Assembly: GCA_030684645.1 (NCBI GenBank)
Contig: JAUXUF010000106.1
Span: 1 to 47,923, forward strand
DNA length: 47,923 nucleotides
Direction: 5' to 3'
From: Bacteroidota bacterium
Lineage (GTDB): Bacteria > Bacteroidota > Bacteroidia > Bacteroidales > Prolixibacteraceae
The position numbers and the translations under genes are program-made. Below the pieces are notes generated by a model, which saw only the letters and a program-made list of their open reading frames with translations, searched no databases and was not told the origin of the DNA. How positions within the stretch are numbered: position 1 is the stretch's first letter; each line of letters starts with the position of its first letter. Shown here piece after piece: positions 4,163-22,986 of this stretch.

Positions 4163-4195
4163 CTTCCTCCCCTTTGGGGAGGATTGAGGAGGGGC
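4163..4195. repeat. Dispersed short palindromic repeat in the hisH leader
   Basis: CCTCCCC-TTT-GGGGAGG is followed by ATTGAGGAGGGG. The sequence abuts the hisH start codon, with only four bases (TTTATG context) between. It resembles the reverse complement of the element at 200-233. The G-rich end would also act as a purine-rich stretch before the hisH ATG. Confidence 0.6.
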
Positions 4196-4198
4196 TTT

Positions 4199-4798
4199 AT
4201 GAATATTGTTATTATCAAGTATAATGCTGGAAATATTGAATCGGTGAACAATGCCTTGCAACGACTTGGCGTCAATGCCGAAATTACCGGCGACCACGAA
4301 AAAATAAAGGCAGCTGACAAAGTGATTTTTCCCGGAGTAGGAGAGGCCAGTACAACAATGGCTTTCCTGAAAAACGAAGGTCTGGATCAGCTAATTCCAA
4401 AATTGACACAACCGGTACTTGGAATCTGTCTCGGTTTACAGCTGATGTGCAGCTATTCAGAAGAGAATGATACTCCTTGTTTGGGCATTTTTGAAGAACA
4501 GGTCAAACGCTTTATTCCGGAACCTGGAAACGAATTTATTACCAAAGTTCCGCACATGGGCTGGAACAGTATCAGCCAATTGAAAAGCGGGATTTTTGAT
4601 CCGACACTCGACCAGCAATATGTCTATTTTGTACATTCGTATTATGCCGCAGTTGGGGAACACACAGCTGCCGTTTGTAACTACATTAACCCGTTCAGCG
4701 CAGCTTTGCACCGCGACAACTTTTACGCTACACAATTTCATCCTGAAAAAAGTGGAACAGTGGGTGCGAGGATTTTGGAGAATTTTTTGAAACTGTAA
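4199..4798 (+). CDS. hisH: Imidazole glycerol phosphate synthase, glutaminase subunit
   Basis: A 199-residue class I glutamine amidotransferase. It shows the nucleophile elbow GICLGLQLM with C77, the oxyanion strand PGVGEA, and FHPEKSGTVG supplying the His-Glu of the triad. HisH hydrolyses glutamine and channels ammonia to HisF, giving IGP and AICAR. I chose ATG 4199 because the in-frame TTG upstream is inside the palindromic repeat and would add residues before the conserved MNIVIIKYNAGN start. A four-helix-bundle gene, not hisA, follows directly. Confidence 0.95.
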   Translation: MNIVIIKYNAGNIESVNNALQRLGVNAEITGDHEKIKAADKVIFPGVGEASTTMAFLKNEGLDQLIPKLTQPVLGICLGLQLMCSYSEENDTPCLGIFEEQVKRFIPEPGNEFITKVPHMGWNSISQLKSGIFDPTLDQQYVYFVHSYYAAVGEHTAAVCNYINPFSAALHRDNFYATQFHPEKSGTVGARILENFLKL

Positions 4799-4800
4799 AG

Positions 4801-4832
4801 TTCCTTAGATACAAAGTTCCTTAGTACCTTAG
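4801..4832. repeat. Octamer array, left flank of four-helix-bundle gene 1
   Basis: Four consecutive 8-bp units start two bases after the hisH stop: TTCCTTAG, ATACAAAG, TTCCTTAG, TACCTTAG. The word TTCCTTAG differs by one base from TTCCTGAG, the reverse complement of the CTCAGGAA unit repeated at 5231-5264. The two arrays therefore form inverted flanks around the gene at 4860-5210. Confidence 0.7.
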
Positions 4833-4859
4833 TGAAATATTAACTTAAATGTATTTACT

Positions 4860-5210
4860 ATGAACACTTTCAGGGAAATTAAAGTTTGGCAGAAAGCAAT
4901 GGACTTTGTGACAAAAATGTACAGAAGCACAAAGAAATTTCCGCAAGATGAACTCTTTGGATTAACCAGTCAGATGAGAAGATGTGCAGTTTCAATTCCA
5001 TCGAATATTGCTGAAGGATTTGGACGACGATCATCGAATGATTTTAAACGTTTTCTGCAGATTTCTATGGGTTCATTATTTGAGTTGGAAACTCAGCTTG
5101 AGATTGCGAAAAATCTGGAATATATGGATGAATCTCAATTCAATAATTTGTATAACGATTTAAGAGAAATAGAGATCATGTTGTCATCATTTATTAATTC
5201 TATAAAGTAA
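4860..5210 (+). CDS. Four-helix-bundle protein (23S rRNA intervening-sequence / S23 family)
   Basis: 116 residues, matching the four-helix-bundle family first seen as ORFs inside 23S rRNA intervening sequences and related to the Avd accessory proteins of diversity-generating retroelements. Hallmarks are an N-terminal FREIKVWQKAM, the core AVSIPSNIAEGFGRRS and the ELETQLEIA helix. It is predicted to be cytosolic, all-helical and oligomeric. The biochemical role of the free-standing members is not established. No reverse transcriptase or rRNA is nearby. It splits hisH from hisA and has inverted octamer arrays on both sides. It is a distant paralogue of the gene at 8268, not a recent copy. Confidence 0.88.
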   Translation: MNTFREIKVWQKAMDFVTKMYRSTKKFPQDELFGLTSQMRRCAVSIPSNIAEGFGRRSSNDFKRFLQISMGSLFELETQLEIAKNLEYMDESQFNNLYNDLREIEIMLSSFINSIK

Positions 5211-5212
5211 AA

Positions 5213-5264
5213 TTCAGGAATGCAAAATAACTCAGGAACTCAGGAACTCAGGAACTCAGGAACT
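5213..5264. repeat. Octamer array, right flank of four-helix-bundle gene 1, running into hisA
   Basis: A degenerate unit TTCAGGAA (5213-5220) precedes four perfect tandem CTCAGGAA units (5231-5262) plus CT. The array is the inverted counterpart of the one at 4801-4832. It overlaps the hisA ATG at 5220 and encodes the first residues of HisA as annotated here. Eight-base units mean that gain or loss of one copy shifts the frame. Confidence 0.8.
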
Positions 5265-5996
5265 AAAATAACTATCATTCCTGCCATAGACCTTATCGAC
5301 GCCAAATGCGTCCGTTTGTCACAAGGCGATTACAACCAGAAAACGGTTTACAACGAGAATCCGCTCGAAGTGGCTAAAATGTTCGAAGATGCCGGAATTA
5401 CCCGTCTTCATCTGGTCGATCTGGATGGCGCCAAGGCCAAACACATTGTCAATTACAAAGTGCTTGAATCCATTTCTGCAAAAACAAACCTGATCATCGA
5501 TTTTGGTGGCGGATTGAAATCGGACGAAGATCTGCGAATTGCCTTTGAATGCGGTGCAAAAATGGTTACCGGTGGAAGCATTGCAGTAAAAGACCGTGAG
5601 ACCTTCCTGCATTGGATCGAAACGTATGGTCCGGAGAAAATCATTCTGGGAGCCGATGCCAAAGATAAAATGATCGCAGTCAGCGGCTGGCAGGAAGTAT
5701 CTGAACTGTCTATTCTGGATTTTATTGAAAGCTATACCAGCAAAGGCATTCAGAAAGTCATTTCGACGGATATCGCCCGCGACGGCATGTTAACCGGCCC
5801 CAGCATTGAACTGTACAAAGAAATCAGGACTAAATTTCCGAATTTGGAACTGATTGCCAGCGGCGGAATTGCCACGATGAAAGACATTCACGAGCTCGAT
5901 GAAATGGGCGTTCCAGGAGTGATAACAGGGAAGGCGATTTATGAGAACCGGATTAGCTTGGATGAAATCAGGAATTTTCACAAAATGAATAATTAG
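5220..5996 (+). CDS. hisA: Phosphoribosylformimino-5-aminoimidazole carboxamide ribotide isomerase
   Basis: A TIM-barrel isomerase converting ProFAR to PRFAR. The core begins at [21 protein letters not shown] with the catalytic aspartate in PAID. Further motifs are [11 protein letters not shown], the second catalytic aspartate in STDIARDGM, and [10 protein letters not shown] near the C-terminus. The only in-frame ATG before the core is at 5220, which adds about 16 residues ([13 protein letters not shown] type) encoded by the CTCAGGAA array. No native ATG remains near the usual N-terminus. The stop codon overlaps the first operator of the SatD promoter. Confidence 0.93.
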
Positions 5997-6069
5997 TCTT
6001 TTTAGGTTAATAGTATATGTATTAACTTTTTTAGGTTAATTATTGAATTATTAACTTATTTAGGTTATT
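5992..6069 (+). promoter_or_regulatory. Three phased operator-like palindromes before satD
   Basis: Three 20-bp boxes of the form ATTAAC-N8-GTTAAT lie at 5992-6011 (ATTAGT/GTTAAT), 6021-6040 (perfect) and 6050-6069 (ATTAAC/GTTATT). The spacer in each ends in TTTAG or TTTTAG. Start-to-start spacing is exactly 29 bp twice. The first overlaps the hisA stop codon and the third lies between the -33 and -7 elements of the satD promoter, reaching into the -7 box. This suggests a dimeric repressor, possibly SatD itself; the binding protein is inferred. Confidence 0.75.
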
Positions 6070-7389: not shown

Positions 7390-7449
7390 ACAGGCAGTAG
7401 GCAGAAATCAGACTGATAAACTGTTTTGAATCTTCTGCCTACTGCCTGT
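7390..7449. repeat. Perfect 17-bp inverted repeat built of heptamers, no gene inside
   Basis: ACAGGCAGTAGGCAGAA (7390-7406) and its exact reverse complement (7433-7449) flank a 26-base loop. Each arm is made of 7-bp words: AGGCAGT, AGGCAGA on the left; TCTGCCT, ACTGCCT on the right. It lacks a T-run, so it is not a typical terminator, although the RNA would form a stable hairpin before hisF. Confidence 0.75.
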
Positions 7450-8222: not shown

Positions 8223-8250
8223 AGCTACAAGCTGCAGGCTGTAGGCTTCA
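8223..8250. repeat. Heptamer array, left flank of four-helix-bundle gene 2
   Basis: Four in-phase 7-bp units begin at the hisF stop: AGCTACA, AGCTGCA, GGCTGTA, GGCTTCA. The stretch GCTACAAGCTGCAGGC matches 15 of 16 bases with the reverse complement of the right-hand array (8622-8663), making inverted flanks around the gene at 8268. Confidence 0.7.
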
Positions 8251-8267
8251 AGCAAAAAAAGGAGGGA

Positions 8268-8621
8268 ATGAAAGATTTCAAGAAATTACAAATTTGGCAA
8301 AAGGGCATAGCTATTGTAAAATTATGCTACAAAATTTCAGAGCAGTTACCTACAACTGAAAGATTCAATCTGATTAGTCAAATTAACCGTGCTGCTGTAT
8401 CAATACCATCAAACATTGCAGAAGGTAGTAGCAGAAGAAGTGAAAGAGATTATTTTCGGTTTCTGGAGATTGCATTAGGTAGTTGTTTTGAGTTAGAGAC
8501 ACAATTAATAATCCTTGATGAATTAGGACTTGCATCTTCAGAGAAGATTAATGAACTCCTAGCCGAGATCAGACAGGAACAACAAATGATCAGCAGTTTC
8601 TCTCAAAAATTACAACTTTGA
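8268..8621 (+). CDS. Four-helix-bundle protein (23S rRNA intervening-sequence / S23 family), second copy
   Basis: 117 residues of the same family as the gene at 4860, with FKKLQIWQKGI at the start, the core AVSIPSNIAEGSSRRS and ELETQLIILDELG. Roughly half the residues are shared with the first copy by eye, so the two are old paralogues. It separates hisF from hisIE and is enclosed by heptamer arrays in inverted orientation. A GGAGGG purine tract lies directly before the ATG, rare here but too close for a normal Shine-Dalgarno site. Role unknown. Confidence 0.88.
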   Translation: MKDFKKLQIWQKGIAIVKLCYKISEQLPTTERFNLISQINRAAVSIPSNIAEGSSRRSERDYFRFLEIALGSCFELETQLIILDELGLASSEKINELLAEIRQEQQMISSFSQKLQL

Positions 8622-8663
8622 GGCCTTCAGCTTGTAGCATGAAGCTTGTAGCCTGAAGCTCTA
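8622..8663. repeat. Heptamer array, right flank of four-helix-bundle gene 2
   Basis: Six in-phase 7-bp units start directly after the stop codon: GGCCTTC, AGCTTGT, AGCATGA, AGCTTGT, AGCCTGA, AGCTCTA. Read on the other strand they give the ACAAGCT/TCAGGCT words of the left flank. Confidence 0.7.
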
Positions 8664-22899: not shown

Positions 22900-22986
22900 G
22901 GTTGTTATGTTATCAGGTTGTCAAGTTATCATTGTTATCTAAACTATTTAACCATCCAACCATTTGACCATACAGCCATTTAACCA
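22900..22986. repeat. Octamer arrays between msrA and the phosphoesterase gene
   Basis: Left part (22900-22939): GGTTGTTA, TGTTATCA, GGTTGTCA, AGTTATCA, then a shifted copy. Right part (22947-22986): five in-phase units TTTAACCA, TCCAACCA, TTTGACCA, TACAGCCA, TTTAACCA. The left words (GTT-type) are roughly the reverse complement of the right (AAC-type). The last unit supplies the stop codon of the minus-strand gene 22980-23498. Same design as the arrays in the his cluster. Confidence 0.75.

Follow-up and report, generated by a model that had tools for sequence, protein, structure and literature searches.

IVP genes—small genes of the four-helix-bundle family PF05635—stand between two arrays of short words that match each other in inverted orientation within a site, and this within-site match is general across all five groups of genomes tried. 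For 182 distinct IVP genes, the flanks score 20.6 on average when paired within a site and 10.6 when paired across sites, while 11.5 was the largest mean in 5000 permutations of the partners, which is overwhelming evidence for a pattern beyond chance. The window—the whole stretch of 47,923 nucleotides that was analysed, which is one entire contig—bears two such sites in its his operon. Comparison between genomes suggests that gene and arms probably make up one unit, i.e., a compact foldback-like element of about 0.4–0.5 kb that carries an IVP gene between drifting word arms and resides in operon spacers. IVP genes show a widespread association with drifting inverted word arrays, and a tie of these arrays to known heptamer repeats appears plausible.

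Two copies in the his operon

In the window, the stop codon of hisH (4184–4798; PF00117; plus strand, as for all his operon features given here) abuts the left arm of element 1 (4800–4832). This arm is built from the 8-bp word GTTCCTTA in phase: TTCCTTAG stands at 4801–4808 and again at 4817–4824, in phase at a spacing of 16 bp, and TACCTTAG follows at 4825–4832. IVP gene 1 (4860–5210, 116 aa) lies between hisH and hisA. Its right arm (5213–5264) begins with TTCAGGAA and continues as (AACTCAGG)4.5 at 5229–5264, approximately the reverse complement of the left word. Within this 4.5-copy array of 100% match, CTCAGGAA is repeated four times head to tail (5231–5262), and its reverse complement, TTCCTGAG, is one base off TTCCTTAG. 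An earlier note on this DNA had described this layout—in-phase 8-bp words on the left, a tandem array on the right, and a reverse complement differing by one base—and the coordinates of both words are confirmed. Its statement that a second gene repeats the layout with a 7-bp word is equally correct. IVP gene 2 (8268–8621, 117 aa; PF05635 at E 1.8e-36) is situated between hisF and hisIE, with the 7-bp words GCTACAA, GCTGCAG, GCTGTAG, and GCTTCAA in its left arm (8224–8253) and inverted 7-bp words in its right arm (8622–8659). The best period is 8 bp for gene 1 and 7 bp for gene 2.

The right array of element 1 overlaps hisA (5220–5996; PF00977), where it is in frame as the N-terminus. Read from the ATG at 5220, the CTCAGGAA array provides an in-frame N-terminal extension of 16 residues (5220–5267). 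The usual ATG of hisA is AAA in the window, and all 18 of the other hisA loci have ATG at this place; in the window genome, the repeat array appears to have been turned into coding sequence and start of hisA.

Further repeats without an IVP gene are found in the window. A gene-less hairpin with element-like arms (CAGGCAGTAGGCAGAA and TTCTGCCTACTGCCTG) lies just 5' of hisF (7391–7448). Two neighbouring gene-less arrays, with GTTATCAG-like and then AACCATTT-like words, share a single gap between minus-strand open reading frames (22904–22985). A 29-bp tandem repeat, TTTTTAGGTTAATTAGTAAATTATTAACT, is located 5' of a gene of the SatD family (5999–6067); similar sequence occurs 3' of hisA in five relatives (L119, L122, L126, L128, and L133) and is perhaps a regulator site.

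The protein family

A profile search assigns the product of gene 1 to PF05635 with E 2.8e-43. More remotely, it is matched by the bAvd model (E 5.1e-7; 30.6 bits, under the cut-off of 40) and the Avd model (E 4.9e-8); with 33.2 bits for gene 1 and 20.8 bits for gene 2, both window IVPs stay below the Avd equivalog cut-off of 80 bits. The kinship proposed in the earlier note is thereby upheld, with the Avd proteins of diversity-generating retroelements as members of a related fold family that is linked by weak profile matches. Structure-solved relatives of IVP are available as PDB entries 2gsc and 2rld. PF05635 is present in 116 of the 148 sampled genomes of the window's phylum, and no IVP match was found in phage records. 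No transposase family is among the Pfam and NCBIfam matches at E 0.001, and the only gene of the element is the PF05635 gene itself. We know of no accepted function of IVP genes.

Arms match within a site

Each site was scored by the best local alignment between its left flank (150 bp) and the reverse complement of its right flank, and every other left/right pairing (cross-site) together with permutations of the partners served as null. From the pooled set of 182 genes, repeats between groups (e.g., L018/L196 and L010/L211) were removed, and 6 of 260 genes with short or N-holding flanks were excluded. The inverted match exceeds the cross-site 95th percentile for 128 and the 99th percentile for 83 of these genes; 10 match in direct orientation only, and 44 show a match in neither orientation. 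With none of the 5000 permutations reaching the observed mean, the claim of the earlier note that flanks are alike within a site and mostly unlike between sites withstood the comparison with control pairings.

Taken singly, the two window sites are only suggestive of a non-random arm match. The flank pair of gene 1 scores 20, which one of the 181 other right flanks and three of the 181 other left flanks also attain; for gene 2, the score of 18 is attained by 2 and 3 of 181, respectively. On the level of word counts, TTCCTTAG occurs twice in the window with 1.28 expected (37 of 100 shuffles reach two) and CTCAGGAA five times with 1.66 expected (2 of 100 shuffles are as high). Five of the nine PF05635 copies of the same genome score above 16, the 95th percentile (L001, L002, L005, L006, and L007); L004 scores 15, L003 matches in direct orientation (21), and L008 and L009 are below the threshold.

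For the genus (117 loci analysed, 195 matches), 41 of 56 distinct genes lie above the cross-site 95th percentile, and the observed mean was reached by none of 10,000 permutations. This genus probably belongs to the Prolixibacteraceae, since L018, one of its IVP copies, corresponds in protein and site to L196 from a named record of that family. A second run with slightly different gene calls placed 42 of 56 genes above the cut for the genus, 16 of 27 for the order, 39 of 50 for named Bacteroidota, 14 of 25 for the phylum sample, and 21 of 28 outside Bacteroidota—a group that is defined by record title, counts Ignavibacteria as outside, and consists in large part of metagenome bins for which misbinning is possible. 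The samples beyond the genus represent the best-scoring loci of each search (the best 30 of many, twice, and the best 80 of 587). By title, the non-Bacteroidota records include Acidobacteria, Planctomycetota, Clostridia, Proteobacteria, Cloacimonadota, and one Methanophagales archaeon bin, whereby the archaeal case is one metagenome-bin contig only (L240, score 18).

The concern that such arrays might be equally frequent around unrelated genes, voiced in the earlier note itself, is not borne out: among control genes with gaps on both sides at the same loci, 5 of 113 exceed the cut, versus 162 of 252 IVP genes (not deduplicated). A blind scan for inverted gap pairs in 400 kb of genome G001 was less favourable. 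Six of 424 near pairs exceeded the random 99th percentile with about four expected; one of these six top pairs was an IVP site, and the other two IVP genes of this stretch fell outside the 22 best pairs, which speaks against the element reading.

Anatomy and seat of the arms

Periodic arrays of 7 or 8 bp are present in at least one flank of 147 of the 186 IVP sites (left 118, right 102, both 73), compared with 13 of 211 other intergenic regions, read as single 150-bp windows in 400 kb of one relative. Arms are matched at 133 sites, of which 84 have 7 bp as their best period, 35 have 8, 9 have 9, 4 have 10, and 1 has 6; the increase in autocorrelation is limited to multiples of 7 and 8. The arms are also polar. 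Read in transcript sense, the left arm, by the upstream stop codon, is G-rich (G exceeds C in 115 of 133 cases, falls below it in 10, and equals it in 8), and the right arm, by the downstream start, is C-rich. The start of the left arm is close to the upstream stop codon, with a median offset of −2 nt (interquartile range −18 to 9, n = 120); for the right arm, the end lies near an in-frame start codon of the downstream gene, with a median of 14 nt (n = 109). At 141 of 162 callable sites (24 of 186 were uncalled), both neighbours are codirectional, versus 179 of 314 gene triplets of the control stretch. An exception to this rule is L326 on a Nostoc edaphicum plasmid: the IVP gene, whose GGGAGTA arms are strong and inverted, has a ribonucleotide reductase gene on either side, and both of these are on the other strand.

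A shared word lexicon was considered and rejected. Among the 7-mer words, 96 pairs lie within one change of each other (shuffled mean 50.7, largest 64), and among the 8-mer words eight pairs do (shuffled mean 2.8, largest 6); this excess is only mild and is accounted for, at least partly, by inheritance.

Filled, empty, and gene-less sites

The hisH–hisA junction was read in 18 genomes of the genus, the window included; a nineteenth hisA locus has no hisH. Nine of the 18 bear an IVP gene: six belong to a different IVP subfamily with the word GATTAAC, and the other three, including one that appears truncated, are of the type seen in the window. Empty orthologous sites were looked for and found in six genomes, where the junction consists of only 8–11 bp and is free of arrays. 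The remaining three genomes have other spacers, two of which are a gene-less hairpin of the CCTCCCC type. By eye, the comparison of filled and empty hisH–hisA sites gave no clear target-site duplication. At hisF–hisIE, the relative L120 has an IVP gene with a word of the same kind as window gene 2, and this word is absent from the junction in six IVP-less relatives (gaps of about 29–87 bp). The earlier note was right to suggest a cassette. Gene and arms occur together far beyond chance, and sites exist with and without the insert.

Some sites retain arms without the gene. At nuoJ–nuoK, four of eight relatives bear an IVP gene (L295, L296, L298, and L299; a ninth match, 46% identical, was set aside), and L297 has a single array of the same word before nuoK with the IVP gene missing. 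Compared with the NuoK proteins of these IVP-bearing relatives, the one of L297 shows 97% identity for L295, 98% for L296, and 92% for L298 and L299, so that loss of the IVP gene would be the simpler reading of L297. At cysD–cysN, both arms are there in L308 and an intact gene is missing. Both cases look like losses from an IVP-bearing state; in a reading by eye, L300 and L136 are decayed IVP copies. The window hairpin before hisF carries the word that brackets an IVP gene directly before hisF in L033 and L124, where the upstream neighbour of hisF is hisA; in the window, it is another gene. At hisA–hisF, words vary among relatives without an IVP gene there. Moreover, the 400 kb of G001 hold 13 gene-less array regions and three IVP genes. 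Hence, arrays may also live without IVP; this surplus and the word variation at hisA–hisF count against the element reading.

The same operon gaps house a second recurrent gene-less hairpin of the CCTCCCC/GGGGAGG type, often directly before a start codon. It is seen at 4167–4195 of the window, at hisH–hisA in L119 and L128, at hisA–hisF in L125, and at cysD–cysN in L307, L311, L314, L316, L319, and L320. A third recurrent spacer, GTCCGTCACATGAATG ... TTTGCCGTTCGGCTTTAGCCAACGGAC with variations, is found at cysD–cysN in L310, L314, L316, and L321.

Words follow the protein lineage

Word sharing was assessed for pairs of IVP copies at sites without flank homology, using the background 99th percentile (13.5) as threshold. 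The background was set by the bin of 25–35% protein identity—which makes the value there 1% by construction—and 1500 pairs were drawn from each of the three lowest bins. Arms are shared by 1% of the pairs at 25–45% identity, 3% at 45–55%, and 11% at 55–65% (n = 482), rising to 5 of 13 pairs at 65–75%, 7 of 12 at 75–85%, and all four above 85%. These top three bins comprise few pairs from few loci, several of them within one operon or gene cluster, and caution is warranted as some close word-sharing pairs might be local hops or duplications. By eye, ATTGTATA-type words are common to L198, L199, L200, and L206; of these, L198 and L206 appear to be a single site, and L199 represents a neighbouring gene from the same pathway. 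GAAGTCG words occur in both L058 and L060. Between window gene 1 and L267, which comes from another class of the phylum, the words are alike by eye only; the scores (12.0, or 13.5 when opposite arms are compared) do not exceed the threshold. Examined as one would examine a transposon family, end sequences are common mainly to copies with similar proteins. On balance, these comparisons point to words that are inherited with the IVP gene, and the word seems to be a component of the element that changes slowly.

On the IVP tree, repeat length is clustered as well, with 18 changes versus a shuffled mean of about 32 and none of 500 shuffles as low, on a tree of 117 rows in which many forks are poorly resolved. 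The idea that repeat length belongs to the IVP protein irrespective of the word was rejected, for the signal was gone once similar words were removed.

A candidate element and its alternatives

In the proposed element, a single IVP gene would be framed by arrays of 7- or 8-bp words, with the words of the left array recurring inverted in the right one. The whole would occupy the spacer that separates one gene's stop codon from the following start codon, usually codirectional with both neighbours. On the sequence level, comparison has established the unit structure, the link between word and lineage, presence and absence, and gene-less arms. From these, we infer that the element may be able to move or spread, with the arms serving as its ends when DNA or RNA folds back into a hairpin to which IVP binds. 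Strand transfer would probably be supplied in trans or by host repair because, to our knowledge, IVP has no catalytic activity. With every new copy, both arms would be renewed from one source and would stay matched while words differ between lineages; gene-less arms would be relics after gene loss, and operon gaps might be places that tolerate such inserts. The 44 unmatched and 10 direct-only genes are not explained by a strict foldback design.

A less probable but serious alternative is a different function of the arms: in an mRNA intervening sequence, they might pair as an RNA stem and thereby hold the IVP frame in a closed loop, similar to the intervening sequence (IVS) of 23S rRNA. RNase III might cut this stem, or the stem might rejoin the upstream stop and the downstream start, so that the operon is still expressed, and selection for RNA pairing would uphold the complementarity of the arms. 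The position of the complementary arms next to stop and start codons suits this reading, and the predicted fold of 4796–5270 pairs both arms (z −1.9, equalled by 4 of 100 shuffles). Across sites, the mean duplex energy is −50.6 kcal/mol within a site versus −33.6 kcal/mol between sites, and 66 of 186 sites lie below the cross-site 5th percentile. A precedent is the Coxiella IVS, for which a 28-bp terminal stem and RNase III cleavage in vitro are reported (PMC4990558). However, selection on an RNA stem is unsupported by the arm mismatches, which show no G–U bias (216 G–U-compatible versus 295 incompatible transitions; cross-site 1063 versus 1274), and the arms show no sign of changing together in place. 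At 26 orthologous sites, own partners matched better than swapped ones in 11 cases, worse in 11, and equally in 4 (Wilcoxon p 0.31). As arms thus matched their own partner no better than that of a sister genome, homogenisation of the arms in place was rejected too; an earlier, looser count, in which own partners came out ahead by 113 to 72, comprised 212 pairs that are not independent and is given no weight. In addition, a stem is impossible with the arms of the 10 direct-only sites. The lack of a G–U bias and of concerted change suggests that arms are made or copied together at the origin of a copy and drift from then on—which fits arms matched at birth, as expected from the proposed element. 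At one site, the orientation of the right array is reversed between L053/L052/L027 and L026/L050, whose IVPs are 95–100% identical, indicating that arrays can also flip or be replaced.

Another serious, though rather unlikely, alternative is that the arrays are independent host features, i.e., polymerase slippage products or regulatory repeats in operon gaps, and that the IVP gene inserts into them or recombines between them. Arrays do exist in intergenic windows without IVP, as the 13 of 211 control regions show, and hisA–hisF holds gene-less arrays and hairpins with several words. The direct-only sites L043 and L044 resemble an insertion within one array, and homologous recombination between equal words could shift a cassette without a transposase, which would also align the word with the IVP lineage. 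Against this stand the following observations: where flanks lack homology, word sharing climbs as the IVP proteins become more alike; the six short empty hisH–hisA sites are free of arrays; and L297 and L308 resemble losses from an IVP-bearing state.

That the flanks are copied or templated from the target upon insertion of the cassette, as the earlier note had suggested, we regard as very improbable. Words that match within sites and mostly differ between sites are what this would produce, and the empty hisH–hisA sites share, by eye, a partial match of six bases with the window word that may be chance. Yet related copies have common words at sites without flank homology, and the same empty sites bear no array; this part of the earlier note is not supported. 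Chance or a general repetitiveness of operon gaps, for which the modest single-site statistics of the window might be quoted, is refuted by the partner permutations in the pooled set and the genus and by the control genes.

Relation to known systems

The Coxiella IVS bears an S23p frame between terminal inverted repeats within 23S rRNA and occurs only in certain isolates (PMC4990558). The elements described here are similar in having a PF05635 frame and terminal inverted complementary repeats, in both window genes and at 128 of 182 sites overall. Unlike the IVS, which is placed in rRNA helices, they lie between protein genes and their arms are drifting 7- or 8-bp tandem words; the window copies reside in his-operon gaps rather than in rRNA, and Rfam at gathering scores yields only two tRNAs in the window. 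Eukaryotic foldback transposons have long inverted arms of short tandem repeats around a centre that is variable or absent. This resembles the elements here, although foldback transposons have repeat families fixed by the element and much longer arms.

The arms themselves have counterparts among bacterial heptamer repeats. G-rich heptamers of Xanthomonas and Nostoc are 7-bp units in gaps between aligned genes, on the sense strand up to 50 bp after the stop and on the antisense strand up to 50 bp before the open reading frame, with 70 convergent pairs in X. campestris and 75 in X. axonopodis; in Nostoc PCC 7120, inverted pairs are few and none of the repeats is on plasmids (PMC4692102). Their geometry, as given there, is that of the arms described here, but they are presented as repeats only, and the terms S23 and four helix are absent from that paper (PMC4692102). 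Cyanobacterial STRR hairpins lie between genes, usually consist of 7-bp repeats, and have a function stated as not known (PMC2670836). Like these and the heptamers above, the arms are degenerate tandem intergenic units, with 7 bp as best period at 84 of the 133 matched sites. Going by the title of a further paper, STRR are reportedly found inside RNase P RNA genes as well. In Beggiatoaceae, 7-bp TAACTGA arrays stand mostly just 5' of start codons, some of them in operons, with 169 direct sets and one inverted set in the main genome and occurrences in Cyanobacteria and Bacteroidetes (PMC4679880). In contrast to the arms here, this is one fixed word, and the terms S23 and four helix are again absent (PMC4679880). 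In cyanobacterial (Nostoc) tRNA-Leu introns, the P6b stem is made of complementary degenerate heptamers that follow either of two motifs, TDNGATT or NNTGAGT, with repeated shifts between classes and an origin stated as not known (PMC4476775). Unlike the elements here, these heptamers are within a group I intron and form only two word classes, and the available text does not mention an IVP gene.

The novelty that the earlier note had put forward holds in part. Arrays of 7-bp words between aligned genes were already described, whereas a link between IVP genes and 7- or 8-bp arrays was not found among the matches listed in open-licence PMC papers, as far as their accessible portions go. Likewise, the available parts of the repeat literature on STRR, Xanthomonas, Nostoc, Beggiatoaceae, and tRNA-Leu introns do not mention IVP genes outside rRNA.

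Thirty-one plasmid records, mostly cyanobacterial, have an IVP match, and 12 of them were analysed (Riemerella and others were left out). By eye, at least 10 of the 12 IVP genes have 7-bp arrays in one or both flanks, with words such as GGGAGTA, CAGAAGT, and GGTGTAG, which may be classic STRR words. Six of the 12 lie above the cross-site 95th percentile, a cut that a word common to three of them pushes upward, and two exceed the corresponding direct-orientation value. The occurrence of IVP genes with heptamer arrays on cyanobacterial plasmids suggests a link to the known heptamer repeats.

Hence, IVP elements may be a concrete candidate origin for bacterial intergenic heptamer repeats, since IVP genes are found inside such arrays, the word tracks the lineage, and arms occur without the gene. 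In a tentative extension, one class of tiny IVP elements with inverted 7- or 8-bp word arrays might be spread across bacteria and perhaps archaea, and its arms and gene-less relics might be the source of the heptamers in cyanobacteria (STRR), in Xanthomonas and Nostoc, in Beggiatoaceae (TAACTGA), and in tRNA-Leu intron stems. New words would then be born in matched inverted pairs, possibly by a repeat-adding synthesis with participation of IVP, which is distantly related to Avd, the partner of a reverse transcriptase. The proposed element provides a testable mobile-element hypothesis for an orphan family that is very widespread. It would also represent a case of two separated DNA arms that remain matched while their sequence varies between lineages, and it bears on operon evolution in that such inserts part closely spaced genes.

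On two of the cyanobacterial plasmids (L329 and L334), the IVP gene is located between cas6 and cas4 of a CRISPR locus, and in L329 it is flanked by long direct arrays of the (AAAAGCT)n type.
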